Shown: positions 1,214 to 45,690 of the stretch, piece after piece
Layout: every line of letters begins with the position of its first letter
How positions within the stretch are numbered: the stretch's first letter is position 1
From: Henricia sp. BOLD:AAB3569
Lineage: Eukaryota > Echinodermata > Asteroidea > Spinulosida > Echinasteridae
NCBI GenBank assembly: GCA_037783545.1
Contig: JBBELK010000548.1
Location: forward strand, 186,001 to 250,000
Length of the DNA: 64,000 bases
Direction of reading: 5' to 3'
Notes under the pieces: model-generated
Told to the model about the DNA's origin: nothing
The model's database searches: none
The model's input: only the letters and a program-made list of their open reading frames with translations
Program-made: the position numbers and the translations under genes

Positions 1214-1469
1214 TGATGGACTCTTGTGCGTCACTCTTGCCATCCACTACAATCCCCAGCTCAGCAGCATATTCCTCTCCATAGAACACAAGCAGCTCTT
1301 GGCCCGGGTAGATTGGTTTAAAACTCCTGTAGTAAATGTGCTCTTGATACTGGTAAGCCACGAGGTTCTGCTCAGTTTCACTGCAAGCACAGTTCACATA
1401 GCGCATCCAGTTGCCTTTGGTTAAGCTCTTGCCATCCACATAACGGCTTTTCCCATCACGATCAAAAAT
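1214..1469 (-). CDS. PRDM9: PRDM9-like exon 7: SET C-terminal half
   Basis: A 256-nt exon, phase 0 in and phase 1 out, has acceptor tttctctgcag and donor ATCA|GTAAGT. It encodes [55 protein letters not shown] and [15 protein letters not shown]. Human PRDM9 has [40 protein letters not shown] and WYGDEYGQELGI. The tyrosines in IYYR and VFYGEEY, needed for catalysis in PRDM9, are kept. The expected preceding segment with a GYxW motif, which carries another key tyrosine, is missing. Confidence 0.93.
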
Positions 1470-4400
1470 CTGCAGAGAAATAGTGTAGAAAAAAACAGTG
1501 GTCAGAAATAGCCATCAGATTATGAATAGCTTCATTTGCTAAAAGAGAAAACGGAACAAAAGGACCAATAATCTTTTTAAAAATAATTTGTGTTGATTTT
1601 GATGTAATAATTGATTTGGGTCATTCTGTTAAAAACAGGACACAGTGTCCCTCTTACAATGTGACACTTTTGGAGTTGATTTTTTATAATTACCGGACTT
1701 CGGTATATAAATTAGAGCTATCTCCTTATTACCCTCGGCATATAAAGAATATACGGTATGACCTCATGAATCAAACACCACCTTTATCTGTTGATACTAC
1801 CCAAAACATAACGAGAATGATTCAATAAACTAGTGCAATCTTCTAAATGCAAGTGTGACATTTTGAGACTTTCGCTCAAAATGTAACAAATTTCGCTCAA
1901 AATGTAACAAATTTCGCTCAAAATGTAACAAATTTCGCTCAAAATGTAACAAATTTCGCTCAAAATGTAACAAATTTCGCTCAAAATGTAACAAATTTCG
2001 CTCAAAATGTAACAAATTTCGCTCAAAATGTAACAAATTTCGCTCAAAATGTAACAAATTTCGCTCATAATGTAACAAATTTCGCTCATAATGTAATTTG
2101 AATCAAAAAAGTCCAGGTTATGCAGCTGGGTAAAACCATCAACTACCTTTTCTAGAAAGAAACTCGTCAAGTTAAAAAATGCCTTGGAGTCCCCTCTTAC
2201 GTCGTGAAGAAATTTGTTTAAATATACCAAGACATGTCTGACCGTTTATAAATTATTTTAAATATTCTACATTATTTATAAATTGCACATAAATTTCTTT
2301 AAACAATTTTGTTAATGTTAAAAAGCCACTTTTACAAATGCATCAAAATGTCACACTGGCTCTTGTATTTATGGAAATACCAATTTTTAAAATTAGTTTT
2401 TTTGTCTTTTTAGGGATAAAAACGTCACTCCTCAAAATTAGGAGTGCAAGGTTGTTTTTATGCTAATTTTATTTTTTTACTGAACACTCCCCAAATAATT
2501 TTGCTGAGTTTGAAATCAACCATGCTAGACAAAGGAACGTTAGAGTGTACGATTTGTCAATATCCCACAAAAAGCCAATTTTCCGGACATTGCGTTTTTC
2601 TCCACCAAAGCAAAATGGGAAAGCCTTTGCAGTTTCTGTGTCTTCTTTTGGTGTTTTAGATAAACTGGAAGTAGTGGAGATTCTGTCAGGAGGAATGTGC
2701 CGGAAGATGAGGTAAAGGCCACCAACCCTGTATTACAGCCAGAAAAAGACTGCTATTTGGTCTCTGCCAGAAACCTGCAAAATAACCTTTAACACATGTC
2801 ACTTTAAAATAACCTTTAACATGGGTTAACTGTTGGATTAAGATGCAAAAAAATACATAACGAGTTTCATCGCAAAATGCGATAGATGCCAAATCCAAAG
2901 AAATGAGATAATGGTGTTAGTACATCTCGATCGGTGGTCCTATTGACCCCTTTCGAACATGTGCGAATACGCCATTTTGGGAGTCAAATAATGCTGAGTC
3001 ATTGTGGAAGCGATGTGCGTGCGCGCCGTTTGTCTCTCTGGTGGGCGTAACACGGTTTAATTCACCAATGGGAGCCTTAGCATTGCGCGTTACGCACGCT
3101 ATGGACACACACAACGCGCACGCACATTGCTTCCACAACGACATTATTTGACTCCTGAAATGACGTCACTGGCACGAGCTCAATACACCAATCCGGTAAG
3201 GTCTCCTTCCCTGTATATATCCACCATAGCTGGGGGCGTCCAGTGCATGGACTGTGCATTTTGTGTTGCTGTTAGAACAAAGAGCACTAATCCATTACAT
3301 GCACGCGACGCGCCCCCTTTGCGTACATAATCCTACAAAGATGTGCAACTTGTTTAAAGTAACAAATTCAAAAATGCAATTTCAAAAAGCCATACAGTTC
3401 ATTCAGTGGAAGCCCCCCACTATGGTAGATATAAAGAAAAGGAGTCCTCGGCTCTCAGATTGGTGTACATACATTTGTCAATTATTGTTACATTATATTC
3501 CACAAAACTGTTTTACTTATTGGAATTTGCCATAGACTACTAAAGTATGACGTCGGTTGCCATGGTAATTGGGTCTAAACATTCGCTGGTAATCTGAAAC
3601 GTGCATTGGTATAGCGCAGGGAAACAGTTCACTGGTTCACCCGGAGAAGACCGAGTTCTTCATTGCCTCATCACCAAATAATTTTGCACGTTTAAAACAT
3701 CTTACTCTTCATCTTGACCAAGCGGAAATTTTTCCGTTTTCTAAGGTTAGAAACCTGGGTGCCATGTTTGATAGTGACATGAAAATGAATGCTCACATAA
3801 CCCAACTGTGCCGGTCTTTGAATTTTCAGATCCGAAACCTCAGCAGAATCCGAAGGTTCCTTAATTTCGATGCCTGCCACAATGCAGTTCGTTAATTAAT
3901 TCTGTCCAGATTGGACTACTGCAATTCTCTGTTGAATGGTCTGTCATAGAAGAACATATTTCGTCTGCAAAAAATACAAAATAGGTGTGCCAGACTCATT
4001 TTTAAGAAACCCCCAAAGTGCACATGTAACACCACTCCTGCGTGAGCTTCATTGGCTCCCAGTTGCTAAACGTATTCAATTTTGCACTCTTGTCCACACA
4101 TACGGTACAAGTCATTGAATAATCTTTCTCCAGGTTACCTCTCAGCTCTTCTAGGAAGTCTTCGTCATATTCACTACGATCTCAAACTAGCACATGTCTT
4201 GATATTCCCAGATCACGCACTCAAGCTGGTGAAAGGGCTTTTTCCGTCTCTGCTCCTCGCCTTTGGAACAACTTGCCAGCTACAGTCAAGAATTCAACTA
4301 ACGTCATTTCTTTCAGAAAGGCTCTTAAGACCCACCTCTTTCTCTAGGATTTGAGCGATTCGATATCCCTCAGTTCTTTTTATCTCCCTGCGCTTTGTAT

Positions 4401-7400
4401 CCTTCGGTTAAAAGCGCATTATAAATGCCATATATTATTTTAGTGTAGACCCCAAAACCATGGCAACACACAAAGGGTGACGTTTTCACTTTAGTAGTCT
4501 ATTGACTGCAGTGCTTAGTTGTAATACAAAATGGCAGTTTTCTGGAAATACCAAAAAATGGATACTGTATATAGCATTTTGTGATGAAACTCTTTATATA
4601 AAATTATGAAAAAAATTGGTTTTTCCAGTAATTGTTTTGAGTAGTGTAGTACATGTGCTTTATGCACTTGTCAATTGATATCCCGGGGATGGCAAAATTT
4701 GTGTGCCAAACCCGGTCAAGTCCCGACCCCCGCTAGCCGGGCAATGAGCGCCAATCTCCGGCCAAGTCCCGGCCAAGTCCCGACCCTCGCTAGCCGGGCA
4801 AAGAGCAGCAAGCCCGGCTCAAGCTTGAAGTTGCGATGCGATACGGACCCCGATTATTCCGATTAATAGGTCGGGCGGTCATACGTACGTGACAGGTCGG
4901 TAGTCATGTGATGACAACCAGCGCGCCCATGAAGACGATGCATGACGACACTGCATGCACTGCAGCATAGACTAGCTGCACGCGCGAACTTCATTGTGCA
5001 TTGTTTTCATCGGCGCGGTGTACGTGTATTATGACGCGTGAGAATAAAGGTCCCGGATGTCCGCCCCGACCTATAGGGCTTCCTATTCCGACCACACACA
5101 AATTTCGATCTTGTTTTTGTACTAATATCTCCAAAAATATATACTTAGAATTAATCTTTTCATGATTTTTCCGTAGACTAAGCTCATTTGAATGATGATA
5201 TTATGTTGGTTTGATTAAATACAGGGAATTTAATGAAGAACAATGTGTGTTTTCTGTGCGTGCTGTTTTTCCAAACCCTGGCTTCGGTCTATTGTGGATG
5301 TGCCTCTGGTGCATTGCTAAACTGTATGAATAAAGGCCTCGCAAGATGAAGCTTGTGTTTCGAAAACGGCTAATGCGCATGCGCGATCTTTTCTATTTTC
5401 GGAATGCAACCCCCAAATTTGAAGTCATTTTATACGTCAAATTTACAGGGGAAAACAAGACAATTCTTTGCCCCAAGATGAATGATGCTCGGTGATGTCT
5501 TGTTTTTACGAATTTGCATTACTTTTTTAGACCATCTTCTGATTTGTGTCAGAAATATCACATATTAATTTTAGAGGCCGAATAGAATCACAGTGGGGTA
5601 GCTCAGGATCTCAGCACGACAATAGATAGTAAGTATCGTTTATAACAAATAATGACGGAAACATCGATATATTAAACGAATGAAATAAAAAGGGAGGCTT
5701 GTGTGGTTGCTATGTATGCTGGATACCGCTCAGTATTGACTTTGCATGTATTTACCCCGGCCTACTTGCCCCGGCCCCTGTTTCCAGTGGATGAAAGGCC
5801 ATGGCAAGTCACGGCCATCTCTTTAGCTAAACCCGGCCAAATCCCGGCCCAACTCCCGGCTTTTTGTCATGCGTGAACTCCCTCAACAAGTCCCGGCATA
5901 CGCCCGGTACACCCGGGCGAAAAAAATGGTCAACTCCTCCGTACGGTCCAAACCTCACACCTTTAGGGAAGAACTTCTCAGCCCAAATACCGAGGCCAGC
6001 ATCCTTGATGCTTGCTTCTTTTACCACCAAACCATCTGGGAGGCTGCGCCTGGCTTGATCTCGACACCCTTTGGGAACTGGTGTATTCTCAATGATGGTC
6101 AATGGATGGTCAGGACAGTCATGCTCGTAGAGTTCATGGCAGTCTTCACAATCTGTAATGTTTCATAGTAATGTAGTAGGAGACAGTTTAACGTGTGTTA
6201 AACGTATGCAGACAGAAGAAAAAAATAAAACATTCCCGGTTTTGTGTGCTGGTGGCGATACGATTGGAGTTTGTAGTTAATCCTTGTTAAATCTTGCTAG
6301 ACCGTACTCAAACCTAGTGACCTGCAGTCAATCTTTACCAACCGTCTTTAATAGCGCTCTGCACTAAAGACGTTACAACCTGCTGCACACGTGCGGCCAA
6401 AACGCAGAACTCAGTCAAATTTCCCATTTTTTACCGTTGCAAGGCATGGCAAAAATTGACATGACGGACGATGACAGCAATTTTCACCTTCAGAATAACG
6501 ACGAAAATACTTGGCACACTGTGAGCTACGAGCAGTTATCGAGATTTAAGCTGAGGTACATGACTTTGCACAAAAAAGTGAAATTTTCCGCCTCTTTCGA
6601 GACAATTCTTTTTCGTGTGCTTGCTGATAAATATTGCAACATGTACATGTAGTTGATGCCAATGCTTTGTGTATTTCGGATCAACCACACGTGGTAATAC
6701 GGGAAACACACACTGCAGTAAGCATGCATTTCACTCCAGTCATCGTGTCGAAAAAAGAGTCTTTAAATCTGACGAAAAAAAATCGCACTTTTTGAACGAA
6801 TGTAAGTAAATCACTGTACTCGACTGAAAACTTGATATCTGCTTGTAGCTGAGATTGTGTGCCAAGTACACTCGGCAAAAGAAGTTCTTGGACACTTGTA
6901 AAAGTTCAAATAATTTTTAAAAATAATTCATAAAAAGCACATTATTGTATATCAATATGACCACACAATAGTTCTCTACCAGCATGATATGGAGTTAACG
7001 CGTGAGCAATCATGCATGGCTGGTTACACGCATTAAACAATAGCAAGTACAGTAACAGAAAATTGCAAGAAATGGAGCATTCAGTTATTCAATTGTGAAA
7101 CAGTTTATGTGGCATAATGATCCATTGAAAGAAAAAAGCAGTATGTTTCTTTGCTGGGGGTTCATTATTGAACAAATCCCGTGCACATTGTCAAGTCAAA
7201 ATTAAATGCCATTTTGAAAAGAAGAGGAAATTACCCATCTTGGATGCATCATTATTCCACTGGAATTGTTAACAAAATTTAGGCCTGCAGGATGGACATG
7301 ATTATTAGCATTTGAATGCTCCATTTCTTGCAATTTTCTGTTACTGTACTTGCTATTGTTTAATGCGTGTAACCAGCCATGCATGATTGCTCACGCGTTA

Positions 7401-10400
7401 ACTCCATATCATGCTGGTAGAGAACTATTGTGTGGTCATATTGATATACAATAATGTGCTTTTTATGAATTATTTTTAAAAATTATTTGAACTTTTACCA
7501 GTGTCCAAGAACTTCTTTTGCCGAGTGTATATTCGTGACCATTTAGAGCATGAACAGTGTTGCTGTTTTGGGGCATTTTGTAGGCTAGAAATTTACGAAA
7601 AAAGACGCGGGCGGCCGAGACTGGCCGCCTATTTGGCCAGTGTGCCACAGCGCAGCAGGTCTGCGGTGTACGGTCAAACCCAGCGATCTAGCACATGTGG
7701 CCGATTTGGTTGTCTGAGGTGGGTTTAGTTGCGTGACGTCACCATCATTGAAAGTTATATTTTTAGCATTAGTGCGGAGCGCTATTAGCAACGTGTCTGG
7801 TGGAGTTTTACATGCAATACTTTGCTGGGACCAACCGGGAAGATGATGAAATGCATAGTTCCGACCGGTCAATCAAGCCGAACCCGCCGACCAATCACAA
7901 CAGAGCTAGCAGACAGCGCCCACATAGGTCAAAGGGCATTGCCTAAAAAAAATCACGCGATTTTCTGCCCCATACAGTTTGTACAGTATTGTATGCGGTG
8001 ATCCAGGTGAATTTGTGTTTCAATGTCGGGCGATTCGCTGTTCAAAGGTAGGAAAGCGCATTTTTATGAATATATGGCATCCCTGCATTGCTAGCCCTTT
8101 GCTCAGTGTGTGCTACGGTAACTGTCGACCCTACAACATAAATTAGGGCCAATGATTTTCCGTTTCAGAAAAGGGCAAATTCCGTTTTTGAAAAACATGA
8201 ATTCCGTTTCAGACAAAATAAATTCCGTTTCATGTTCTTTAATAGATAAAAGGTTGTTAATGCCCAGGGAGTCGATTATAAACATAACTTTTGTATACGA
8301 TGTACTGCTGACTTCTTAAAATGTTAATTTGAATTGAAAATTTTCCTGAAAATTACTGTAAGTTTACTTGTTGATTTGTTACATACAAGCCTTATCAGCA
8401 AAACACAATTATGATCAAACAGGCAAAGTTTTCAAATGTTCAGTTCTCTATGATAACAGATGATCAAAATGTCGGAAAATGTCTTTACTCGGTCAATATC
8501 AATGATTTACAATGCAACAGAAGTTGTCAAAGCTAAACAAACTTCTAAAACGTAATGCACTGACTCACTGACTGATCGCTGCAACAAAAACAAGAAACAT
8601 GTAACAGCCGTTGCACTGCAGTATCATTGCATGACGTCACCGTGTTCTTCTCCTCCACACAGAAACAAATTGTCAGCCATTTTGTTTTCGCTTTGGCGAC
8701 AAAATGTTGAAAGTTTATGGTTGATTTTAGACCTTTCCGAGATGAAAAATCAATGTGTGTGTTCATATAGAGCGTAGGTAAGGTAGTTTGAGTATAATTG
8801 TTGATAACAGGGAGGGAGAAAATGCAATTTGGGTGAAAAAAAATGTAAAGATCGTGCCGTGAATGTGATGATTTTGCCCTCGCGTCTAACGTGTATTCAT
8901 TTGCAATGTACATGAATCTCGTAACTTTTTACGGTCTGATTTCTGATGCTTTTTTAGTTTAACAAAAAGAAGCTTAATAAAGAATGCAGTGTTAAGTTAG
9001 CTTGATCAATTTCAATAGGTTTGGCCTTAATAACATGAAAAAAAACCTACGTTTTTGTCACTATATTTACAATTTTTTTTACTTCAAACTCAAATCCCGT
9101 TTTCCGTTTCAAAGGGCAGATTCCGCGAATTCCGTCCGTTTTCCGCGATCGCGGAAAATCATTGGCCCTAATAAATACCTTTGAGTTTTCTCTAATGAAC
9201 CTGTGCTTTCCATGCCGAGTCCGCGGTTGCTTTGTACGTTGTGTGTCGCCATTTTTTTGCGATGGCTTGTGAGCACATAGCAACTATATCTAATGGGCGG
9301 GGTTAACTGGGCAATCTCGGAACTATGCATTGTAGTAAAAATTAGTAGGACCCTACTGAGCCCTAATGGACCACTGGGGCCACCAGCACAGGAATATGTT
9401 TATAGTCATAGTGCATCGTAGGGGAGCCAAAACCGTGGCCGGGTGTAGCACCAAGACGCAAAACCGGTAATGCAAGACTGGTTCAACTTTAAAATAAAAG
9501 CGGCAAACCGAGGTAAACAATTTACTACTCAACTTAATTTTATTGTCCAATGATTTGATCTCAATTTTTAAGTTCTCATATCATGTAATGTCTGAAGCCT
9601 AGTTTCCACAAAATCGTAACACGCACACGCAGACTAGACGCAAACAGCTGCAATCAAACACTGACGGAGAAAAATTGGCAAAATTTGCTTAAACTTTGCC
9701 AACTGTCTGCTTTACCGTTTGCGTTGCTAGTTTGCCGGTACTCTCTTCCTTTGTTGTGATGATATGGAAACCATGCTTTAAAGTCATTACACACAGTGTC
9801 ACACTAGGTCAAATGTAGGAAACAAATATGTAAAAAAATACTTTATACTTTGTGGGATGCTGTGGTCGAGTGGTTTTGGCCACTGACTTGCAACACTCAT
9901 CTAAAAACTTGGGGCTGTACCGTACCTGTGCCTTTGAACAAGGCACTTAAAGGCACAGGCTCGTCAGCAATGCGGGCCTGCCAAATGTGTGCCACGCAAT
10001 ACGCAGCTCCATAGCAAAGGCATGGAGCTGCGTGTTTCGAGCACGAATTTGGCGCGCGCGCATTGCTGACGAGCCTGTGCCCTTAAACATGCTTGCTCCA
10101 TTTTTCGGAAGGGATGTAAAGCTATCGGTCCAGTGTGTTGTGTAATGCACTTAAAAGGTCCCAGGGGCACTCTTTCATGAAGAGTAATGAGAATTCACCT
10201 TCTGTACATGTATCTCAATGTTTAGGTGAACATACCCATATGGAATGTTCGGTGTATCAATTATAATAATAATAATAATAAAACAATACGCACACACAAA
10301 GCAGTCGTCACTTGGTCCATCTAGATCCTTGTAGCATTTCTTGGAGTCCCCTCGTTGAGGGTAACGCCGAGCATTTTCATTCGACTGGCCAGGACCTAAA

Positions 10401-13400
10401 TTAAAGAAAAACATGAACATGACGTCATATACCTCTTTCCCTGCTGTTATTGGCCAAGACTAAAATGGATCAAGAATGGCAATAAAAATGTGTGCATTAG
10501 AAATATAATTGTACATTACAGTTGATGACTACATGTAGGCCTACACGATTCCAAAATTTCTGTCATCCAATATTTTGGTCCCTTTTTGACACGGTGATCA
10601 GGGACCGTTAAAAATATTAGTTACTCTGCTTATGTGTAGTGCTTCTGTAAAAGTTCAGTTTTAAGAGAGACACTGATGGAGGATATGACTAGTGCCTTAA
10701 AGCTCAAGGGCTGCAATTTCATGGCTATGTCAAGGACACCAAATTTGCTGATGTACATATTACAGGTATTCTGCTGCCGTTTCTAAGAACACAATTTGGA
10801 ATTTTGGCTGGTAACCCATTTTACAAAGCAAATAAATTCTGTGCTAAGCGAATGTTTGTGCTTAGCAGAGCCATGAAATTAGCTTTTTGTGTGTAACATT
10901 GCATAATGGACGGCAGCACGAATTCTTCACTTTCAAACGGAAGTACAGTTTAAAAATTCACTACGCTCTTGTGGTGGTGCACGCCATTGCCTAGCAACCA
11001 ACGGTCTGGATGCTTGTCATATTGTCTTACGGTGATCATGGTAATGATTCCGTACTTCACACCTGCTACAGGCACCACATAGCATCAACAAATCAGTCTG
11101 GTCAAGTGGATACAAAGTGGTAATGATTCCGTACTTCACACCTGCTACAGGCACCACATAGCATCAACAAATCAGTCTGGTCAAGTGGATACAAAGTGGT
11201 AATGATTCCGTACTTCACACCTGTTACAGGCACCACGTAGCATCAACAAATCAGTCTGGTCAAGTGGATACAAAGTGGTAATGATTCCGTACTTCACACC
11301 TGCTACAGGCACCACATAGCATCAACAAATCAGTCTGGTCAAGTGGATACAAAGTGGTAATGATTCCGTACTTCACACCTGCTACAGGCACCACATAGCA
11401 TCAACAAATCAGTCTGGTCAAGTGGATACAAAGTGGTAATGATTCCGTACTTCACACCTGTTACAGGCACCACGTAGCATCAACAAATCAGTCTGGTCAA
11501 GTGGATACAAAGTGGTAATGATTCCGTACTTCACACCTGTTACAGGCACCACGTAGCATCAACAAATCAGTCTGGTCAAGTGGATACAAAGTGGTAATGA
11601 TTCCGTACTTCACACCTGTTACAGGCACCACGTAGCATCAACAAATCAGTCTGGTCAAGTGGATACAAAGTGGTAATGATTCCGTACTTCACACCTGCTA
11701 CAGGCACCACATAGCATCAACAAATCAGTCTGGTCAAGTGGATACAAAGTGGTAATAATTCCGTACTTCAAACCTGCTACAGGCACCACATAGCATCAAC
11801 AAATCAGTCTGGTCAAGTGGATACAAAGTGGTAATGATTCCGTACTTCACACCTGTTACAGGCACCACGTAGCATCAACAAATCAGTCTGGTCAAGTGGA
11901 TACAAAGTGGTAATGATTCCGTACTTCACACCTGCTACAGGCACCACATAGCATCAACAAATCAGTCTGGTCAAGTGGATACAAAGTGGTAATGATTCCG
12001 TACTTCACACCTGCTACAGGCACCACATAGCATCAACAAATCAGTCTGGTCAAGTGGATACAAAGTGGTAATGATTCCGTACTTCACACCTGTTACAGGC
12101 ACCACGTAGCATCAACAAATCAGTCTGGTCAAGTGGATACAAAGTGGTAATGATTCCGTACTTCACACCTGTTACAGGCACCACGTAGCATCAACAAATC
12201 AGTCTGGTCAAGTGGATACAAAGTGGTAATGATTCCGTACTTCACACCTGCTACAGGCACCACATAGCATCAATAAATCAGTCTGGTCAAGTGGATACAA
12301 AGTGGTAATGATTCCGTACTTCACACCTGTTACAGGCACCACGTAGCATCAACAAATCAGTCTGGTCAAGTGGATACAAAGTGGTAATGATTCCGTACTT
12401 CACACCTGCTACAGGCACCACATAGCATCAACAAATCAGTCTGGTCAAGTGGATACAAAGTGGTAATAATTCCGTACTTCAAACCTGCTACAGGCACCAC
12501 ATAGCATCAACAAATCAGTCTGGTCAAGTGGATACAAAGTGGTAATGATTCCGTACTTCACACCTGTTACAGGCACCACGTAGCATCAACAAATCAGTCT
12601 GGTCAAGTGGATACAAAGTGGTAATGATTCCGTACTTCACACCTGTTACAGGCACCACGTAGCATCAACAAATCAGTCTGGTCAAGTGGATACAAAGTGG
12701 TAATGATTCCGTACTTCACACCTGTTACAGGCACCACATAGCATCAACAAATCAGTCTGGTCAAGTGGATACAAAGTGGTAATGATTCCGTACTTCACAC
12801 CTGTTACAGGCACCACGTAGCATCAACAAATCAGTCTGGTCAAGTGGATACAAAGTGGTAATGATTCCGTACTTCACACCTGTTACAGGCACCACGTAGC
12901 ATCAACAAATCAGTCTGGTCAAGTGGATACAAAGTGGTAATGATTCCGTACTTCACACCTGTTACAGGCACCACGTAGCATCAACAAATCAGTCTGGTCA
13001 AGTGGATACAAAGTGGTAATGATTCCGTACTTCACACCTGTTACAGGCACCACGTAGCATCAACAAATCAGTCTGGTCAAGTGGATACAAAGTGGTAATG
13101 ATTCCGTACTTCACACCTGTTACAGGCACCACGTAGCATCAACAAATCAGTCTGGTCAAGTGGATACAAAGTGGTAATGATTCCGTACTTCACACCTGTT
13201 ACAGGCACCACGTAGCATCAACAAATCAGTCTGGTCAAGTGGATACAAAGTGGTAATGATTCCGTACTTCACACCTGTTACAGGCACCACGTAGCATCAA
13301 CAAATCAGTCTGGTCAAGTGGATACAAAGTGGTAATGATTCCGTACTTCACACCTGTTACAGGCACCACGTAGCATCAACAAATCAGTCTGGTCAAGTGG

Positions 13401-16400
13401 ATACAAAGTGGTAATGATTCCGTACTTCACACCTGTTACAGGCACCACGTAGCATCAACAAATCAGTCTGGTCAAGTGGATACAAAGTGGTAATGATTCC
13501 GTACTTCACACCTGTTACAGGCACCACGTAGCATCAACAAATCAGTCTGGTCAAGTGGATACAAAGTGGTAATGATTCCGTACTTCACACCTGTTACAGG
13601 CACCACGTAGCATCAACAAATCAGTCTGGTCAAGTGGATACAAAGTGGTAATGATTCCGTACTTCACACCTGTTACAGGCACCACGTAGCATCAACAAAT
13701 CAGTCTGGTCAAGTGGATACCAAGTGGTAATGATTCCGTACTTCACACCTGTTACAGGCACCACGTAGCATCAACAAATCAGTCTGGTCAAGTGGATACA
13801 AAGTGGTAATGATTCCGTACTTCACACCTGTTACAGGCACCACGTAGCATCAACAAATCAGTCTGGTCAAGTGGATACAAAGTGGTAATGATTCCGTACT
13901 TCACACCTGTTACAGGCACCACGTAGCATCAACAAATCAGTCTGGTCAAGTGGATACAAAGTGGTAATGATTCCGTACTTCACACCTGCTACAGGCACCA
14001 CATAGCATCAACAAATCAGTCTGGTCAAGTGGATACAAAGTGGTAATGATTCCGTACTTCACACCTGTTACAGGCACCACGTAGCATCAACAAATCAGTC
14101 TGGTCAAGTGGATACAAAGTGGTAATGATTCCGTACTTCACACCTGTTACAGGCACCACATAGCATCAACAAATCAGTCTGGTCAAGTGGATACAAAGTG
14201 GTAATGATTCCGTACTTCACACCTGTTGCAGGCACCACGTAGCATCAACAAATCAGTCTGGTCAAGTGGATACAAAGTGGTAATGATTCCGTACTTCACA
14301 CCTGTTACAGGCACCACATAGCATCAACAAATCAGTCTGGTCAAGTGGATACAAAGTGGTAATGATTCCGTACTTCACACCTGTTACAGGCACCACGTAG
14401 CATCAACAAATCAGTCTGGTCAAGTGGATACAAAGTGGTAATGATTCCGTACTTCACACCTGTTACAGGCACCACATAGCATCAACAAATCAGTCTGGTC
14501 AAGTGGATACAAAGTGGTAATGATTCCGTACTTCACACCTGCTACAGGCACCACATAGCATCAACAAATCAGTCTGGTCAAGTGGATACAAAGTGGTAAT
14601 GATTCCGTACTTCACACCTGTTACAGGCACCACGTAGCATCAACAAATCAGTCTGGTCAAGTGGATACAAAGTGGTAATGATTCCGTACTTCACACCTGC
14701 TACAGGCACCACATAGCATCAACAAATCAGTCTGGTCAAGTGGATACAAAGTGGTAATGATTCCGTACTTCACACCTGTTACAGGCACCACGTAGCATCA
14801 ACAAATCAGTCTGGTCAAGTGGATACTAAGTGTGTATGTGAAAGGAAGTACGTCAGTATACCAGACTAGGATACTAGACAATGAGTATTGTTAGTTTAGC
14901 TATAATTTCCAAATCAAACTTTCTTTTATCCGAAAGTCACTAAAAATTACTACAGTAAAGTCTCATTATAGCGCTCTTTAAGGGACTGAAATATAACCAG
15001 TGCATACACAATGTAGAGAATAATGGCTGGGACTTTAGTAAAAGGAGCTTTATAGAGGAGCTTTATATCGGGGGGTGTTATAACATAAGTTTACTGTAGT
15101 TTAAATCTTGTTTTGCAGTAAATAATTTCAAACCTGATTTTCTGGCTCTTTTCTTGCGTGGTATCCCATCAGACTGTTTGTCTACAGTCTCGGCATCTTC
15201 ATCAGCAACGAGGTCTCCATCTTCATTGATCGTCACTCGGCCCATATAGTCAAATGTATCTTCACCCTCTCTTTGCGGGGGTGCAGTTTTAGACGGTCCT
15301 TGTCTTGAAGAGTTCTGAAATGCAAATATCCAAATTTGAGTCAAGAGAAAAACCACATGGCCCCAACAAGATATATGAATCTGTGTTCTCTTGCAGAATG
15401 ACGTGATGCTCCACTACCTGGGATAGGCGACCCATTGTGTTACCCTTAGGTTTGCCCTAAGATTTTTATTTTATTTTAAAAATTCATGTCAATTTTCTTT
15501 CACCCAAATCACCACAATGCAAAGTATGTACATTGTACTATTGACCCCTTTCGAAAACGTGCAAATACGCCATTTTGGGAGTCAAATAATGCCGAGTCAT
15601 TGTGGAAGCGATGTGCGTGCGCGTTGTGTGTGTCTCTGGTGGGCGTAACGCGGTTTAGTTCACCAATGGGAGCCTCAGCATAGCGCGTTACGCGCGCTAT
15701 GGACACACACAACGCGCACGCACATTGCTTCCACAACGACGCGGCATTGTTTTTCTCCCAAAATGACGTCATTGGCACGAGCTCAATACATGTAACAAGA
15801 AATTAAAAGCCCAATGTAATTTGCAAGTTGAAACTTTTTGTGTGGATTCTTTGAATAAGTGCATACCATATCTGAAGAAGAATGTTGGTAAACTAGCCTG
15901 CAGAAATGTTTAACTAGTATGAATACATGATTTGTTTTAGGGATAATGTCCCAGGGACTGCCGAGGTGAATTTGATACCAATGTGGAAAATGTCCATGAG
16001 TTTGGGAAATCTAGATGCAGTAGCAAATTGGCTCCACCGGGATTCGAACCACAGACCTTCTGCTTAATGTGCAGGCCCTGCCAATTGAGCCAACTGGTGT
16101 TCTTGAATCACAGTTTTGCAGTTGTTTCTCACTGAGTTGGATTAGCTATCACGTAAGCTTAGCAGGCCCTACAGAGTGATAAACCCTTAAATGAGATAAC
16201 CACCCTTCCTAGAGATCGCTTACTATATGCCCCAAACCCCTGCTCGGCTTGCTCCAATGCATAGTTCCGACCTGTCAATCCGAACCCGCCGACCAATCAG
16301 AACAGAGCTAGCAGACGGCGCCCACAAAGGTCAAAGTGATGCAATCATCACACAATCACGCGATTTTCTGCCCATACAGTTTGTATGTTGTATGCGCCAG

Positions 16401-19400
16401 TGACCGGGTGAATTTTGGTTTCAATGTCGGGCGATTCGCTGTTCAAAGGTAGGAAAGCGCATTTTTATGAATATATGTCATCCCTGCATTACTAGCCCTT
16501 CGCTCAGTGTGTGCTACGGTAACTGTCGACCCTAAAACATAAATACCTTTGAGTTTTCTCCAATGAATCTGTGCTTTCCATGCCGAGTCCCGTTGCTTTG
16601 TACGTTGTGTGTCGCCATTTTTTTGCGATGGCTTGTGAGCCCATAGCAACAATATCTAAGGGGCGGGGTTAACTGGGCAATCTCGGAACTATGCATTAGT
16701 ATGAATATATGATTTGTTTTAGGGATAATTTACATTGGATGTATCAATAATTCAGAAACTCTTTAAATTTATATCATACGCATGGTGTTTGTGTTAGTCA
16801 ATTGTAAACAAATCCTTTATTTGTTAATTTCTCACAAAAAGTACCATTTTGGAAAGAAATAAACTCATGCCGTGTTTATTACCATTGCTATCAGTCAGGT
16901 TTTCTTGTCAACTCATGAAGTCAAATTTTTAGTCGCTGCAGATGATATTATTGGGATATAAATTAATTAAGCCACGGCAAAATAAGGAATGCCTCTTAAA
17001 TATCAAAACCACGTAATCGGCGCCTAAAGTGATATATACATGTATGTGAAAACATTTTGTTCATAATCCATTTTGGGTTGTTTGCATATTTTCATTGCAT
17101 AAGTATTCAAGATTCATCCTAACATGGTATATTTCAAAGCCGTTATTCTCGAAAAGTATTTCTGGCAACGGGAGTGCGCTGTCAGTTTCTTGCGTCATAT
17201 TGCCCAGATGCAGTAAGTTACATATATCAATTTATGTATAATGAGGGTATATGATAGGATTGACAGTTATAGATGAATTTAAAATCAAGAGAAAATTGCA
17301 ATTTTCTCGTGTTTCTAAATTCATCTCTAATTGTCAATCCTATCATATACCCTCATTATAATAATAATGACCTCTATAGTGAATGGGTTGGCATGGATTT
17401 CCCCCTCCCCCCAACCCCCTATTGAGGTAAGACCTCTCTTCACGATAGGCCATTAGTGTAGCTAAATTGGAGGGCATGGATATGTAATACGCCCCACTGC
17501 ATTGTTGGAAAAAGAGTGGCAATCACGAGATTGTTGTGATGCTCCGACGGGATGCCCAGATAGCTCGGTTGGCAGAGCAGTTGGCCATGTAAGCCAATGA
17601 CCTGGGTTCGAATCATAGTCGGTGCATTGCAATTTTCTCGTGTTTCTAAATTCATATATAAATTTGGTGTCATTGGAAAGCTGAAGAATTGGTCTTTCTA
17701 CTCGTGTATAAACCTCAGAAAGTCAAAGTTGGGGGACATTCCTGATTTTGCCATGGCCTGTCACATATTAAAATTACCTCAGGTTGGTCCGGCTTGGCTT
17801 TCTGCTAAACAGGAACTCTAAATGTCTGTTTCCTCTTGCAAGCTGATGGTGCTGCAACACAACAAATATGATTAGCATTCAGAATGGAGTTTATGTAATT
17901 TGGGAAAATGTCCACAAGCTGCCAAAATTTGACTCGTTTAAAAGGGACACACCGGCTTAATAGATAGTATTCGAACACGTGCGAATACGCCATTTTGTAA
18001 GTCAAATAATTGTGGAAGTGATGTGCGTGCGCGTTGCGTGTGTCTCTAGTGGGCGTAGCGCGGTTTAGTTCACCAATGGGAGCCTTCGTACAGAGCGTTA
18101 CGCGTGCTATGGACACACGCGGCGCGCGCGCGCATTGCTTCCGCAGTGGCGCGGCGTTGTTTGACACACAACATGACGTCATGAGAAAGCTATCAATGGG
18201 CTATTTTGGGCTCGAATTAGACCCATACATTATTCTGAATGCCCTTCTGAAATAAACTGAACATATCCTGAAAAGAAACCACGGAATTGTGCTGTTTTTG
18301 AGAAATTTAAAAAAAACAGAGGTCACATGACTTTTCGGAACCAGATTCTGGTTCCGAAAAGTCACATGGTCTTGTGAGTTAGTTTTGTATCCAGCCGCAT
18401 GAATGTTTTCTACTGCAGAACTGCACCAAACTCAACTCTGATTTACCCCCAATATTTATAAGATATTGACAAAAGAGAGACTATTTATTCAGGTATGAAA
18501 CAAAGTTGAACATATGTCTGAAAATTCGAACATTAATGTTTGTTTCGAGAGTCTAGGGAACGGGAGCGTGCGCGTGCTACGGCAGGCTACCGTGGAGTGT
18601 AGGATATTTTTCCCCGCGCAGCACGGCAAATAAATTACGGGATATTTTGAGGATATTTTTTCACAACGACCATCCAAAAAGTATTGTCAATGCTGCCAAA
18701 TCTCTAAATAATGTAAACAGTAGGTCGGTGTGTACCTTTAAGAATTACTTTTGGGTATTGATCACTCTGAAATGACGTCACTTCCTACAAACTGTCACGT
18801 GTATCAGGATCTTGAGCGAATTTCGGCTGCTCCGTATTTCGAACAAATTTTGAGCAAAACACACTTGATGGCGTTTAATACGCAGTAGCATTTTTCCTAT
18901 GAAGATGATGGTGCCTGTTAGAGTGGTCAATTAACCCTGGCTCCTTTGGGTGTGGGTAGGGTTTGTGTAAAATGTTATTGATTTCGGAGTAATGAGTCGT
19001 GTCAGGGTTGCAGAACGCTAGTATTTTTAGCATAACAAATAGGCTTACTTGTGCCAGATTAACGCTTTTTAAGTGTGAATCATTCATTCTCACCTCCAGT
19101 CACCCTGGGACGGCTCAGGCAAAATAAACGCATTCAACGTTGAACACTAATTCCACCCTACATGTAGATTGATTTTAACCTGGGTTGATTTTAACACAGG
19201 TTGAATCTATAGGTTGATTTTAAAGCAATATTTTTCACTAAAAGGAGTGTTAAAAAGAATATGACGTTGCCCATATACACGAGTACCATACTCAAACAAA
19301 ATTAAAGGGGCTGTTTTCCGGTTAGCCTTGTCCAAAGCAGTCTCCAGGTTTTTTGCTGTACGAGAGAATATGGGGTCTAGCGCATGCGAACCACACACGG

Positions 19401-22278
19401 CATCAAAATGAGCCACTGTGCGGTCTAACTTCCATATACCAGCCCATAGGGCAACACACTGGCTGCGTACATACAGCACTAGCTGCGTACGGCCTGTCCT
19501 ACCTCGAAAGACACCCTTGTCGCGTCTGTCACTTATTCTTTCGGCCAGTTTGGGCCAAAAATTAGCAGGTTTTGGATATGCGGATATGCAAGGTATGAAT
19601 ATTTAAAATTAGTCTTGAGCCAATCAAGTGCTTTATGAGTTGCACGTAATGACGCAAAGCATGCATTATGCATGTAATGGTGTCCTCCATGTTACGAGAA
19701 CCGTAGACGAAAACAACAAATAATCTCTGGTTCGTATTATTTATTGTGCTGGTCTGTTTACGTATTTGATTAAACTTTTGGGGGACAACGGTCCGTTGTA
19801 ATATGACAGTTTTCCTGAATGATTTGTGGGAGCTCTTAATACTGCCTCGGACAAACAAACTGGGGATCGCAGATCATATCATTTTTCAAACAACCTGTCG
19901 TGCGTCGACCAATAAAATTTCAGCTCACGCTGGGGTGGTTTATTACTGTAATGAGTTTCGCTGGCTGAATGCAGAACCATCAAGGCGTTGGGTTACGGAC
20001 CATACCGATACATGTACGTGTCATACATGTCATAGAGCGGCGTGCTGTAAGCCAATATGTGCAACAGATGCCGTAGTTTTTAAGCGCTTTGTTTTATCTT
20101 CAGCGGGCCGTCTAGAAGACAAGCCCAATGCCTTGATCGAGGCTATGTTTGTGCTGTGCAAAATTCTTTTAATTTTTTAATTAAGTGCGCGCTTAGAAGT
20201 AGTAGTGTTATTTCTTTATCACTGTCGCTGGAGTCTACATACATGTAGGTACTTGGGCTTTCTCTTACAAAATGGTCCATTCACAATTAAGTGCGCGCTT
20301 AGAAGTACAATATAGTAGTGTTATTTTGTTACACAACGCCATGGTTACTGAGTTTTCAAGTTTGGTTAAACATGCGCAAACTGTGACACAGTCTCTTTAA
20401 CTTTCTTGATGTCGGACATACAATGATGAAGTCCTGTTATAGGCCAAATTTTGCAAGATGTACAAACCTGTTTGTCTGTGATATTTATCCGTTCCACCAG
20501 GCTTCCAATCTTCATCACTGTCGCTAGAGTCGACGTACTTGGGCTTCCTCTTACGAAATGGTCCATTCATAAACTCTGGCTTCGATACATTCAGACCTGT
20601 GGAGGGTTCAAACATGCAGCTTGTTAAAGTTATACTACTTAAGAAAAGAAATGTAAGTCACTTCGGGCAACAGATTCGGACGATGCTAATATCGAATGAG
20701 AATGAATGATAGTGAGCATGAGGTTGTTTAATCAGCTGCAACAATGGCGGCTAGTTCTCACACGACACAACAAGGAATTGCGATTGTGAATTAGAGCGTG
20801 TTGAGCCGAGTACTGTAATACGCCACTTATTTCCGTTTCCATTGTTTGTGGAGCTAAAACTCTCAGAACATTCAGTGTTGTGACGGCTCTGCAAGTTTAC
20901 TATCCCTTACTGTGTACCAATCTGTGATGTGACGGCTCTGCAAGTTTACTATAGGCCTTACTGTGTACCAATCTGTGTTGTGTGTCGCAATTTTTTGCGA
21001 TGGCTTGTGAGCATATAGCAACAGTATCCAAGGGGCGGTGCTAACTGGGCAATCTCGGAACTATGCATTATTTGCGAGTAGGTGATTGATCGCGAGTAGC
21101 TGGCCAAGCATCAAAAGGAGAGGAAAAAAACCCACAAAATACTTAGGACACGAGTACCGGTATGTAACGGTACTCACGGCGCTACAATTAAATCAATTAT
21201 TTTTAAAATGATAATTGCGAGTCCGAGTACTACTATACAAATATTGACTGCAATGAGGGGCATGGTTAAGATTATAGGCACAAGGTGATCTCGAAGCAAT
21301 GACTATGCCCCGAGGCTGAAGCCGAGGGGCATAGTCTTGGCTTCGAGATCACCGAGGGCCTATAATCTTAACCATGACCCGAATAAACAGCAGTCAATAT
21401 TTGTTTTATATACCGAATGTGTAGATTTTTGTCATCTGGTTGGTTAAAAGTAACAATACATCATACAGTCATGACAGTGGTCCTTCGAGTTTCGATTTCG
21501 GAAGCTGGTCTACGGCGGAAAAGTTGTATATTTACAGCAAACATTTGTAGCATAATCACCTGGCACTTTAGTAGCACATTTCACCTGACAAAGTTTTCAC
21601 TGTAGGCCACTTCTCTTATATTCTTAAGGACTTCATCATCTACGACAGACGTCGAGATGCCGCAATTACCGTCCTGATAAATGTTTACGTGAAGCGCCCA
21701 GCTGCATAGTTGGTGCAAAGCTACATGTATGCTAACACATGTAATGCACGCGTCCGGAATCCGCTAAATGACTATGCCCGGGGCATGGCAAAGACTATTG
21801 CCCGGTGGGCATATACGCGCCGGGTCTAGCCGATTCAATGCCCCCACTTTTAACCAATCAGATGACAGGAATCTACGCATGAGGTATATAATTGCAATTA
21901 TTTGCTTAATCAAGCTATTCGCCCAGCGGTACATGTAGTATGCGGAATCAGGAAATTATTTTTGGACTGGCGCAGACATCTGGGAATTCTAATTATTAAA
22001 ATCCAATCAGAGTAGACTTTATAGAATTGTTTTATAAAGGGAAGTACGATCAAAAAAATGATATGCACATAAGTTATTTTCAATTTGCCGGGGCATTCTG
22101 CACTTAATCTCTACAAAACCAGCAACATCAAAATCAAATAACACTTACCGATTTCTATCATCATTTCATAGTTCTCCTTGATGTTTCTCAGCCGCAACTT
22201 TTCATAGTCTGAGAGTTCCTTAAATTCACTTGTAGTGAAGAACTGCTCAATGTCATCTGGACTGCTCGCTTTCGGCAT
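1214..22278 (-). CDS. PRDM9: PRDM9/Meisetz-like histone methyltransferase gene (7 exons seen, 3' end beyond window)
   Basis: Seven exons on the minus strand give, in order, a KRAB-like domain, acidic and basic linkers, an SSXRD-like motif, a Cys2-Cys-His pre-SET zinc site and a PR/SET domain. This is the order found in vertebrate PRDM9. In vertebrates PRDM9 trimethylates H3K4 and H3K36 at sites chosen by a C-terminal zinc-finger array, which places meiotic double-strand breaks. Exon phases (1,1,0,1,1,0, then 1 at the exit) agree at every join that can be tested. No zinc-finger array is visible in positions 1-1,213, so it should lie further left. Two defects stand out: exon 3 has an in-frame TAG, and the short segment joining the two SET halves was not found between 5,934 and 1,470. 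The gene may therefore be a pseudogene, a null allele, or affected by an assembly error. Family assignment is firm; functional status is open. Confidence 0.9.
1871..2096. repeat. 21-bp minisatellite (about 11 copies) in PRDM9-like intron 6
   Basis: The unit ttcgctcaaaatgtaacaaa plus one t is repeated about 11 times with almost no change; the last copies carry cataatg in place of caaaatg. Because 21 is a multiple of three, the array creates long open frames that are artefacts of the repeat. Confidence 0.95.
2930..3190. mobile_element. MITE family A, copy 1
   Basis: A 250-260-bp GC-rich sequence with an imperfect internal inverted repeat (tggaagcgatgtgcgtgcgc facing gcgcacgcacattgcttcca). It recurs at 15,538-15,785 and 17,962-18,195. 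It is a non-autonomous DNA-transposon-like repeat without coding capacity. Confidence 0.8.
3531..4507. mobile_element. MITE family B split by a LINE 3' fragment
   Basis: The two ends, tagactactaaagtatgacg at 3,535 and its inverted counterpart near 4,487-4,505, are the termini of a small transposon. Relatives lie at 36,318-36,476 and 57,800-57,976. About 800 bp of LINE sequence occupies the middle, between ...cactggtt and ...gtagaccc, where the uninterrupted relatives are continuous. Confidence 0.75.
3646..4440 (+). mobile_element. LINE 3' fragment (reverse transcriptase C-terminus)
   Basis: Plus-strand pieces read [34 protein letters not shown] and [20 protein letters not shown], the usual end of a CR1/Jockey-type reverse-transcriptase ORF. 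It is 5' truncated and carries stops and frameshifts. It ends in the common tail phrase gcgcattataaatgccatat. Confidence 0.88.
4680..5930. repeat. CCCGG-rich repeat in PRDM9-like intron 6
   Basis: Both ends (4,690-4,830 and 5,755-5,925) are full of the words ggccaagtcccgg and ctagccgggc. A 56-bp internal duplication lies at 4,717-4,810. The middle is unique-looking AT-rich DNA. It looks like one transposable element with repeat-rich ends. Its right edge lies about 10-20 bp from the end of exon 6. Confidence 0.55.
5935..6152 (-). CDS. PRDM9: PRDM9-like exon 6: pre-SET zinc site and SET N-terminal half
   Basis: The exon follows acceptor cattacag and enters in phase 1. It starts (Y)[15 protein letters not shown], a Cys-x2-Cys-x7-Cys-x2-His site spaced exactly as CEMC...SC..H in human PRDM9. 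It then reads [20 protein letters not shown] and [11 protein letters not shown], matching SLPPGLRIG, QAGLGVWNE and LGLHFGPYEG. The 3' boundary is uncertain: the best available donor, GGA|GTTGAC, is poor, and within about 20 bp the sequence passes into a CCCGG-rich repeat. The real splice site may have been lost to that insertion. Confidence 0.85.
6867..7529. repeat. 217-bp inverted repeat with 229-bp spacer
   Basis: The arms 6,867-7,083 and 7,313-7,529 are near-perfect reverse complements (one difference seen, in acttgtaaa versus actggtaaa). The spacer has no coding capacity. The shape fits a foldback element or a recent inverted duplication inside PRDM9-like intron 5. Confidence 0.9.
7850..9331. 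mobile_element. MITE family C copy 1, interrupted by a nested element
   Basis: The terminal inverted repeats are aatgcatagttccga (7,850-7,864) and its complement (9,317-9,331). The body matches the uninterrupted copy at 16,256-16,697 on both sides of an insertion at 8,144-9,170. Confidence 0.88.
8144..9170. mobile_element. 1,027-bp TIR element nested in MITE C
   Basis: The ends TAGGGCCAATGATTTTCCG and its complement are perfect inverted repeats, followed inward by several ttccgttt(c) words. It is flanked by ATAAAT at 8,138-8,143 and 9,171-9,176, where the empty copy of the host MITE (near 16,537) has a single ATAAAT. No transposase is visible. TAGGG ends recall hAT elements, but the duplication seen is 6 bp, not 8. 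Confidence 0.85.
9855..10282 (+). mobile_element. tRNA-derived SINE with a MITE nested inside
   Basis: It starts with a tRNA-like head (tggtcgagtggttttggcca), contains the family body gcttgctcc...ggaagggatgtaaag, and ends in an AAT repeat. Better copies lie at 23,796-24,185 and 41,766-42,143 (minus). A palindromic MITE interrupts it at 9,951-10,082. The AAT tail ends about 12 bp from the end of PRDM9-like exon 5. Confidence 0.85.
9951..10082. mobile_element. 132-bp palindromic MITE D, copy 1
   Basis: The element is almost entirely a self-complementary hairpin with ends AGGCACAGGCTCGTCAGCAA and is flanked by TTAA on both sides. A copy of the same length lies at 61,257-61,388, also between TTAA sites. 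TTAA duplication is typical of piggyBac and Kolobok-type transposition. Confidence 0.92.
10294..10395 (-). CDS. PRDM9: PRDM9-like exon 5: SSXRD-like motif
   Basis: A 102-nt exon, phase 1 to phase 1, follows acceptor tttaatttag. It encodes [20 protein letters not shown] followed by [14 protein letters not shown] and the first base of a Tyr codon. Human PRDM9 has [20 protein letters not shown], then DYLYCE here, so RYPQRG-KKCYKDL-GPSDD aligns with the SSXRD motif. I placed the donor at TTTGTGT|GTGCGT because it alone restores TyrCys across the junction with exon 6. The AAT-repeat tail of a SINE begins about a dozen bases beyond the exon end. Confidence 0.85.
11041..14832. repeat. 48-copy, 79-bp minisatellite in PRDM9-like intron 4
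   Basis: The unit begins gtaatgattccgtacttcac and ends tggatacaaagtg. Starts at 11,041, 11,120, 11,199 and so on to 14,754 keep an exact 79-bp register with no indel across 48 copies. Two linked variants alternate: ctgCtac with acAtag, and ctgTtac with acGtag; a few copies are mixed. Copies 23-37 are almost all the T/G type, which suggests recent homogenisation. The array lies wholly in the intron between exons 4 and 5 and has no long open frame. Confidence 0.97.
15134..15314 (-). CDS. PRDM9: PRDM9-like exon 4: acidic/basic linker
   Basis: A 181-nt exon, phase 0 in and phase 1 out, has acceptor tttcag and donor CAG|GTTTGA. It encodes [20 protein letters not shown], then an acidic run ([20 protein letters not shown]) and a basic tail (RKKRARKSG). 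Low-complexity linkers between KRAB and SSXRD are typical of PRDM9. The exon is assigned by its position, frame and splice sites rather than by strong similarity. Confidence 0.75.
15538..15785. mobile_element. MITE family A, copy 2
   Basis: Close copy of 2,930-3,190 in the same orientation, sharing the motifs aatacgccattttgggagtc and caccaatgggagcct. No coding capacity. Confidence 0.85.
16025..16103 (-). tRNA. tRNA-like sequence (pseudogene or SINE head)
   Basis: On the minus strand it has a D-arm-like ttggctcaattggcagggcc and a B-box ggttcgaatcccgg, followed by a pairing gtggagcca. The spacing is roughly right for a tRNA but the cloverleaf is imperfect. It is probably a tRNA-derived repeat. 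Confidence 0.45.
16256..16697. mobile_element. MITE family C copy 2 (uninterrupted)
   Basis: A 442-bp element with terminal inverted repeats aatgcatagttccga. It serves as the empty-site reference for the nested insertion in copy 1. A third, partial copy (right end only) lies at 20,975-21,071. Confidence 0.88.
17240..17361. repeat. Short imperfect palindrome
   Basis: atgagggtatatgataggat and the following sequence are reverse-complemented just downstream, giving arms of about 55 bp almost without a spacer. It is probably a small hairpin MITE. Confidence 0.75.
17552..17626 (+). tRNA. tRNA-Thr-like pseudogene or SINE head
   Basis: gcccagatagctcggttggc, then an anticodon arm ttggc-catgtaa-gccaa (anticodon TGT), and a T arm gggttcgaatc are clear. 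The acceptor stem has two mismatched pairs and no CCA-competent end, so a tRNA-derived repeat is more likely than a working tRNA. Confidence 0.5.
17778..17851 (-). CDS. PRDM9: PRDM9-like exon 3: basic linker with in-frame TAG
   Basis: A 74-nt segment sits between a strong acceptor (ttgtgttgcag) and donor GAG|GTAATT. Its phases (1 in, 0 out) are exactly those needed between exon 2 and exon 4. The reading is [15 protein letters not shown], stop [12 protein letters not shown]. The residues on both sides of the stop suit the basic linker seen in PRDM9 proteins. The other two frames either stop or leave the wrong exit phase for exon 4. Skipping this exon would join phase 1 to phase 0 and break the frame. 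An internal acceptor just after the TAG (cctgtttag) also gives wrong phases. Confidence 0.65.
17938..18741. mobile_element. TIR element E copy 1, with MITE A copy 3 nested inside
   Basis: The ends read aaagg(ga)cacaccggctt and, inverted, cggtgtgtacctttaag. The same element lies inverted at 48,827-49,629. Here MITE family A interrupts it at about 17,962-18,195. A perfect hairpin, gacttttcggaaccag facing ctggttccgaaaagtc, lies near 18,333-18,366. Confidence 0.85.
20178..20325 (-). pseudogene. Duplicated fragment of PRDM9-like exon 2 between direct repeats
   Basis: Positions 20,219-20,275 read on the minus strand as [11 protein letters not shown] and the start of the acidic motif. This matches exon 2 with several substitutions and a 10-bp TACATGTA-type insertion. 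The fragment sits between two copies of a repeat beginning aattaagtgcgcgcttagaa (from 20,179 and 20,285). It looks like an exon piece caught in a local tandem duplication, and it has no usable splice sites. Confidence 0.75.
20468..20596 (-). CDS. PRDM9: PRDM9-like exon 2: post-KRAB acidic segment
   Basis: A 129-nt exon, phase 1 in and phase 1 out, lies between acceptor cacag and donor GTTTGT. It encodes [20 protein letters not shown] followed by [15 protein letters not shown]. Human PRDM9 has RATRPAFM in the matching place, then an acidic stretch ending DSDEEWTP, so the match covers both the FM motif and the acidic SDSDEDW motif. A degraded second copy of part of this exon lies about 190 bp downstream in the intron (20,219-20,275). 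Confidence 0.88.
21217..21410. repeat. Imperfect inverted repeat (MITE)
   Basis: atattgactgcaatgagggg and catggttaagattataggc on the left face cctataatcttaaccatg and cagcagtcaatat on the right. The centre is a second palindrome around gccccgaggctgaagccgaggggc. No coding capacity. Confidence 0.8.
22149..22278 (-). CDS. PRDM9: PRDM9-like exon 1: start codon and KRAB-like domain
   Basis: The ATG at 22,278 opens a 43-codon exon that begins [20 protein letters not shown] and continues with [20 protein letters not shown]. It ends in a consensus G|GTAAGT donor in phase 1. Vertebrate PRDM9 reads [20 protein letters not shown], then RYRNVKRNYNALITIG in the same place, so this is the ancestral KRAB-type module. 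A KRAB motif was noted in a sea urchin Meisetz homologue by Birtle and Ponting (2006, cited from memory). I chose this ATG because the KRAB homology starts within ten codons of it. Any 5' untranslated exon is not resolved. Confidence 0.88.
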
Positions 22279-45479: not shown

Positions 45480-45690
45480 AGTCCTCAAGTATTCTCAAGG
45501 CTCTTCAGCCTTTTCAAGAAAACCTGCCAGATAAATTTCAACCGAGTATTCTCAAGGCTCTCCAGCCTATTCATTTAAAAACTGCATTCCGATATATTCT
45601 ATATATAATATAGACCGTATAATTCCAGTATTCTCAAGGCTCTGCAGCCTGTACAAAATCTTTCAGGTATTATCATGGCTCTGCAGCCGA
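45480..45690. repeat. Short tandem-like repeats within the Ngaro-like element
   Basis: Four spaced copies of a word like tattctcaaggctctgcagcc, about 30-80 bp apart, lie between the recombinase and RNase H regions. They have no evident coding role. Confidence 0.7.

Follow-up and report, generated by a model that had tools for sequence, protein, structure and literature searches.

A multi-copy PRDM9-type locus in a sea star: three copies with open frames and one probable pseudogene

Introduction

PRDM9 picks the sites of chromosome recombination in mammals. In vertebrates the protein (Meisetz) combines KRAB, SSXRD, zinc knuckle, SET, post-SET finger and C2H2 array, and the same order, with KRAB-like and SSXRD-like parts, is found in the sea-star genes described here. 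Further traits in common with the vertebrate gene are three catalytic tyrosines, kept in the open sea-star copies, and near-identical 84-bp fingers that differ at the contact positions. Unlike vertebrate PRDM9, the sea-star gene is present in four copies, of which three are open and one, referred to below as W, is broken.

The salmonid Prdm9 alpha paralogues are likewise a mixture of tandem and dispersed duplicates, many of them truncated or carrying stops, with one or two full-length copies kept, according to the available part of PMC11703093. In salmonids, each species as a rule retains a single full-length alpha1 copy, and function has been mapped (PMC11703093). The sea star has three open tandem copies of putative function. 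Among invertebrates, the PRDM9 genes of a sea anemone, a limpet and Capitella also carry an array in which the fingers evolve in concert, and the three similar sequences of Capitella are regarded by the authors as possible alleles or fast-diverging paralogues (available text of PMC2779102). Compared with the invertebrate genes in that text, the sea-star copies are resolved on one contig and have full exon models, and there is a broken fourth. The same study, by Oliver et al. in 2009, reports germline transcripts of PRDM9 in sea urchin, among others (PMC2779102). In the portion available of a 2026 review, full-length homologues reach cnidarians and sponges, and conservation of function is described as unknown (PMC13186367).

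Complete PRDM9 genes outside vertebrates have thus already been published. What is added here is a multi-copy asteroid PRDM9 locus, with three open copies whose finger contacts are nearly unrelated and a recently damaged fourth copy. Our literature search covered titles and abstracts, with most subscription journals and preprints outside its scope, and within it we found no paper treating PRDM9 of sea stars.

Results

Gene model of the window copy

The window is the whole stretch of DNA that was analysed, 64,000 nucleotides long (C548:186001-250000), and belongs to an assembly of 740.7 Mb in 2104 contigs. The first-pass annotation had described seven minus-strand exons of a PRDM9 homologue in this stretch. 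These exons are real: their outer limits are the same as first drawn, and they are conserved relative to three further copies, P1, P2 and P3, on contig C570. The model of the window copy, W, is as follows, in window positions unless a contig is named.

Exon 1: 22149..22278, minus strand; start codon ATG and KRAB-A-like segment
Exon 2: 20468..20596, minus strand; KRAB-B-like segment, then an acidic stretch
Exon 3: 17778..17851, minus strand; linker of 74 nt, with an in-frame TAG at 17807-17805
Exon 4: 15134..15314, minus strand; linker
Exon 5: 10294..10395, minus strand; SSXRD-like
Exon 6: 5935..6152, minus strand; zinc knuckle and first part of SET, without the last 48 nt and the C570-type donor
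Dispersed repeat adjoining the exon 6 break: 5435..5934, minus strand; 500 bases used as query
Exon 7: 1214..1469, minus strand; second part of SET
Exon 8: C548:182668-185291, minus strand, beyond the window, at a distance of 709 to 3332 bases to the left of window position 0; post-SET finger, one further separate finger and tandem C2H2 array

Exon 3 was found by comparing the four copies, and exons 2 and 4 are out of phase without it. Six of the seven window exons have 88.5-98.6% amino acid identity to the C570 copies; exon 3 was aligned as DNA instead. The C2H2 array that had been predicted to the left of the window is indeed there, at C548:182668-185291, with 24 tandem fingers of 84 bp. KRAB-like, SSXRD-like, SET- and finger-coding exons follow one another in the vertebrate PRDM9 order, as originally proposed.

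AG precedes exons 2-7, GT follows all seven exons and the phases fit throughout. The earlier statement that junction phases match is formally right at every border, but at exon 6 the match hides a loss of 16 codons; the phases agree there because the adjoining repeat starts with GT and the loss comprises whole codons.

The introns of W contain several other features. A 79-bp tandem unit in 48 copies (98% match) occupies window positions 11039-14832, between exons 5 and 4, and a 21-bp unit in 10.8 copies (99% match) lies at 1870-2096, between exons 7 and 6. A remnant resembling exon 2 at 20143-20286 (minus strand) has 78% identity over 74 bases to P2 around exon 2, and is perhaps a partial exon duplication. 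Elsewhere in the window, at 44408-48149 (minus strand), broken open frames look by eye like a reverse transcriptase and a tyrosine recombinase of a DIRS-like retroelement.

Three open copies on a second contig

Searching the genome with exon 6 returned four places, and the query of exons 1 and 2 returned eight, namely two exons in each of four copies. On sequence evidence, W is one of four PRDM9 copies in this sea star. The other three lie in tandem:

P1: C570:627247-640249, minus strand, 841 aa
P2: C570:658259-677599, minus strand, 955 aa
P3: C570:707345-733752, minus strand, 896 aa

Their eight-exon frames are open, beginning at the ATG and running to a stop codon within the finger exon. At the exon borders AG and GT are present and the phases fit, and there is no stop before the end of the array. 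P1 and P3 share one short C-terminal tail. In P2 the array is frameshifted after 12 fingers, and four more complete fingers with a tail of the P1/P3 type lie downstream in another frame. In one finger of P3, a zinc-binding cysteine is replaced by arginine. Tyrosines 276, 341 and 357, which are named for PRDM9 in the available part of PMC5519329, are kept in all three copies.

Relation to PRDM9 and other PRDM families

The knuckle-SET region of P3 scored 170.5 bits against the solved structure of PRDM9, compared with 123.5 for PRDM11 and 103.1 for PRDM14, and its SET region matched solved PRDM9 with an E-value of 4e-49. Over 164 residues, the SET domains of P1-P3 have 45.1-46.3% identity to PRDM9 of human or mouse. 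Identity to PRDM11 is 39.6-42.1%; that to PRDM14 is 45.7-46.5%, but over 129 residues. The best solved match is thus PRDM9 rather than another PRDM family, in keeping with the relationship first suggested from the window, and assignment to a different PRDM family is ruled out by the bit scores together with the exon architecture.

PRDM11, the next-best solved SET match, is not known to carry a finger array. A SET tree of seven rows placed PRDM11 with vertebrate PRDM9 (support 95/91) and P1-P3 outside this pair, with PRDM14 at the opposite end. When rooted on PRDM14, this topology agrees with an origin of PRDM11 from PRDM9 within vertebrates, as reported in the available part of PMC5519329. Deep support was weak (35/89) in a tree of 11 rows, and the SET trees do not decide between PRDM9 and PRDM11. 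The sequences of the sea-star genes fit best with their being relatives of the PRDM9/PRDM11 group that have the architecture of PRDM9. The genome also contains SET matches of lower identity that resemble other PRDM families; a PRDM14-like one is backed by the tree (95/97), and labels of PRDM1- and PRDM10-like were given by eye.

For the N-terminal exons we compared the sea-star peptides with human PRDM9, using the human letters and 2000 shuffles. The KRAB exons 1 and 2 aligned without gaps over 68 residues and scored 151, against 33.1 +/- 5.2 for the shuffles, none of which did as well (0/2000). Among solved structures the top match of this part was the KRAB domain of ZNF93, with an E-value of 0.16. 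The SSXRD-like exon, which lies just before the zinc knuckle, scored 44 over 26 residues, against 25.7 +/- 4.1, a value reached by 3 of 2000 shuffles. The Pfam SSXRD profile found no match in this exon, and an NCBIfam scan gave one hit, to a bacterial SET model, far below the cut-off. In two respects these parts are unlike vertebrate PRDM9: the KRAB-like exons are missed by the Pfam KRAB profile, and linker exons 3 and 4 have no likeness to human PRDM9, 1133 of 2000 shuffles being as good.

Damage in the window copy

The reading frame of W is not intact. Exon 3 contains an in-frame TAG at 17807-17805 where P1, P2 and P3 have a lysine codon, and this stop is unique to W among the four copies. 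In exon 6 the likeness to P1-P3 ends after position 5935, while those copies continue for 48 nt, or 16 residues, before a GTAATT donor. The GT found at the break in W is formed by the first bases of the repeat. Human PRDM9 retains the part of SET with which the 16 lost residues align; all three catalytic tyrosine letters are present in W, but the missing residues lie between the first and the second. A second TAG cuts the last finger, in a finger exon that is open over 874 codons.

We searched 164 kb of the 352-kb contig C548 for the missing 48 nt and found no match longer than 13 bases. The repeat beyond the break, used as a 500-base query against the whole genome, was found at 33 places including the query itself. 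Among the 32 others, 11 match over the full 500 bases at 90-96%, and in 22 the match extends as far as the base that adjoins the exon. Because the query itself ended at the break (5934), repeat sequence is shown up to the exon, and the element's own end may differ. The loss from exon 6 may represent an insertion accompanied by deletion or a recombination between repeats.

The salmonid study takes a gene as likely non-functional if it has nonsense changes or lacks the SET exon, and tolerates stops inside the array (PMC11703093). Applied here, this rule would make W likely non-functional because of the stop in exon 3, and P1-P3 would count as canonical. Judged from its sequence, W is very probably a pseudogene of the PRDM9 family. 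We stop short of a firmer statement because an in-frame splice from the GT at the break to exon 7 is formally possible and would yield a SET domain shorter by 16 residues.

It is improbable that W still yields a useful product, whether by skipping or reading through exon 3, by using the GT at the break as a donor, or as a shorter KRAB or finger protein. The remaining splice sites and frames of W are intact, its finger exon is open over the length given above, and its ratio of nonsynonymous to synonymous change is not raised, all of which would suit such a product. Skipping exon 3 alone would shift the frame, however, as this exon is 74 nt long; the residues lost from SET are ones that human PRDM9 keeps, and the GT at the break differs from the GTAATT donor found in P1-P3.

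Very improbable is a second alternative, in which the lesions are artefacts of a chimeric or mis-called contig that really represents an intact copy or another haplotype. The assembly does seem to contain unmerged haplotypes, as suggested by SET matches with equal scores on the contig pairs C91/C121, C293/C69 and C122/C363. But three separate lesions would have to be explained, the repeat adjoining exon 6 is spread over many of the genome's contigs, and W differs from the C570 copies by a dS of 0.12-0.14 with introns that resemble each other in islands only, a divergence greater than alleles would be expected to show.

We therefore retain the view of W as a very probable pseudogene. Over the non-finger exons dS is 0.119-0.137 between W and P1-P3, compared with 0.089-0.112 among P1-P3. 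The dN/dS of W against P1-P3 is 0.23-0.27, no higher than among P1-P3 themselves (0.22-0.26, finger exon left out); it follows that the decay is recent or that the lesions have yet to become fixed. With counts rounded, Fisher tests gave p values of 9e-6 to 1.4e-5 for the pairs among P1-P3 and 1.7e-7 for W and P1. The non-finger exons of P1-P3 are under purifying selection, and W was probably once a gene of the same type as the open copies, before the damage to exons 3 and 6.

Finger arrays

All four copies have a tandem C2H2 array in a single exon with diversity at the contact positions. In W, 24 fingers fit the pattern; one degenerate finger before them and one cut finger after them are not counted. 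Lettered by identical DNA, the W fingers run ABCDEFG ABCDEFG ABCDEF HIJJ, and when each finger is set against the one seven places further on, no difference appears in the first 13 of the 17 pairs.

Over the 54 array fingers, contact positions -1, 2, 3 and 6 have a pN of 0.447 and a pS of 0.189, whereas the values elsewhere are 0.051 and 0.116. The contact share is 0.522 in W, 0.457 in P1, 0.588 in P2 and 0.498 in P3. Random sets of four non-ligand positions seldom reached these shares: out of 10626, 11 did so for W and 3 for each of P1, P2, P3 and the pooled fingers. Each array has 7 or 8 different helices. W shares none with P1-P3, while P1 and P2 share one, P2 and P3 two, and P1 and P3 three; the finger contact residues thus differ almost completely among the copies.

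As controls we used C2H2 arrays from six of the 150 places listed in the same genome, drawn from the strongest finger matches; two of them share the PRDM9 finger consensus. Their contact shares were 0.463, 0.336, 0.354, 0.308, 0.688 and 0.322, so that one control lies above all four PRDM9 arrays and one more lies above P1. The arrays whose finger consensus equals that of PRDM9 are L068 (C70:229950-230800), which is the one with the share of 0.688, and L064 (C607:739950-740850). Several such arrays are clustered on C70 and C607.

Mitochondrial gene order

The genome had been called echinoderm-like from the window, a description that the mitochondrial DNA supports and narrows to a sea star. A 4.3 kb mitochondrial piece has the order ND1(-), Leu(-), Gly(-), Tyr(-), Asp, Met(-), Val, Cys(-), Trp(-), Ala, Leu(-), Asn(-), Gln, Pro(-), COI, Arg, ND4L, COII, Lys, which we take to be the inverted order of asteroids. 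The tRNAs were called by program and the protein genes by eye, and one overlapping Ile call was set aside. COI is open under the echinoderm code and also under tables 5 and 13, and the genetic code therefore adds little. COX1 occurs three times on C955, at a spacing of 16,221 bases, and a single time on C2104. All four pieces, each 4341 bases long, are identical, and C955 looks like mitochondrial DNA in tandem.

A ZCWPW1-like gene

A CW-domain exon on contig C497 has ZCWPW1 as its best solved match (1.8e-8), followed by MORC4 (1e-5) and ZCWPW2 (1.1e-4). It is followed on the contig by pieces coding for the start of a PWWP domain. When the CW and PWWP pieces were joined by eye, the CW part matched at 2.1e-12 and the PWWP part at 9.7e-9, the latter over 25 of 93 positions. 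The PWWP piece alone had NSD2 as its best solved match, with no ZCWPW1 among the 60 matches listed, and a genome-wide PWWP search did not have the piece near the C497 CW exon among its results. Taken together, the pieces make the presence of a ZCWPW1-like gene probable. Among vertebrates, ZCWPW1/2 losses accompany losses of PRDM9, according to the available text of PMC8892340.

Discussion

The first-pass annotation expected its locus, if a finger array lay just to the left, to bear on whether PRDM9-directed recombination is older than vertebrates. For W this does not hold, as W is most likely a pseudogene, with its exon 3 stop and with 16 residues absent from SET. The copies that do bear on the question are the three open ones on C570, which lay outside the view of that annotation.

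By analogy, we infer that the open copies act like the PRDM9 of mammals and salmonids. In such a scheme, their fingers would bind selected DNA sites in meiotic germ cells, and their SET domains would add H3K4me3 and H3K36me3 to nearby nucleosomes. The KRAB/SSXRD part would connect to the break machinery, and the ZCWPW1-like reader would recognise the H3K4me3/H3K36me3 marks. Turnover of the repetitive finger exon would renew the binding sites as old ones wear out. We consider the chances evenly balanced that at least one open copy places hotspots.

The open copies might instead be KRAB-SET-finger regulators, for example of mobile elements or germline genes, that do not place hotspots; this is possible, though we lean against it. 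Several copies with different fingers would suit changing targets, and the finger consensus recurs in other C2H2 arrays of the genome, one of them with a higher contact share. The function of PRDM9 outside vertebrates is also given as unknown in the available parts of PMC6116924 and PMC13186367. Against a purely regulatory role, all the domains that accompany PRDM9-directed recombination in vertebrates, by the criterion in the available part of PMC5519329, are present, with SSXRD as a putative one, and a ZCWPW1-like gene is likely present too.

Returning to hotspot placement, we tentatively suggest, without pressing the point, that the sea star may run several complete PRDM9 genes at once, with near-identical KRAB and SET parts and with fingers that would read almost unrelated DNA. 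On its own, W would count as a pseudogene in a family already known. With its three open copies and probable ZCWPW1 gene, the sea star offers a tractable setting for asking whether PRDM9 sets recombination sites outside vertebrates.
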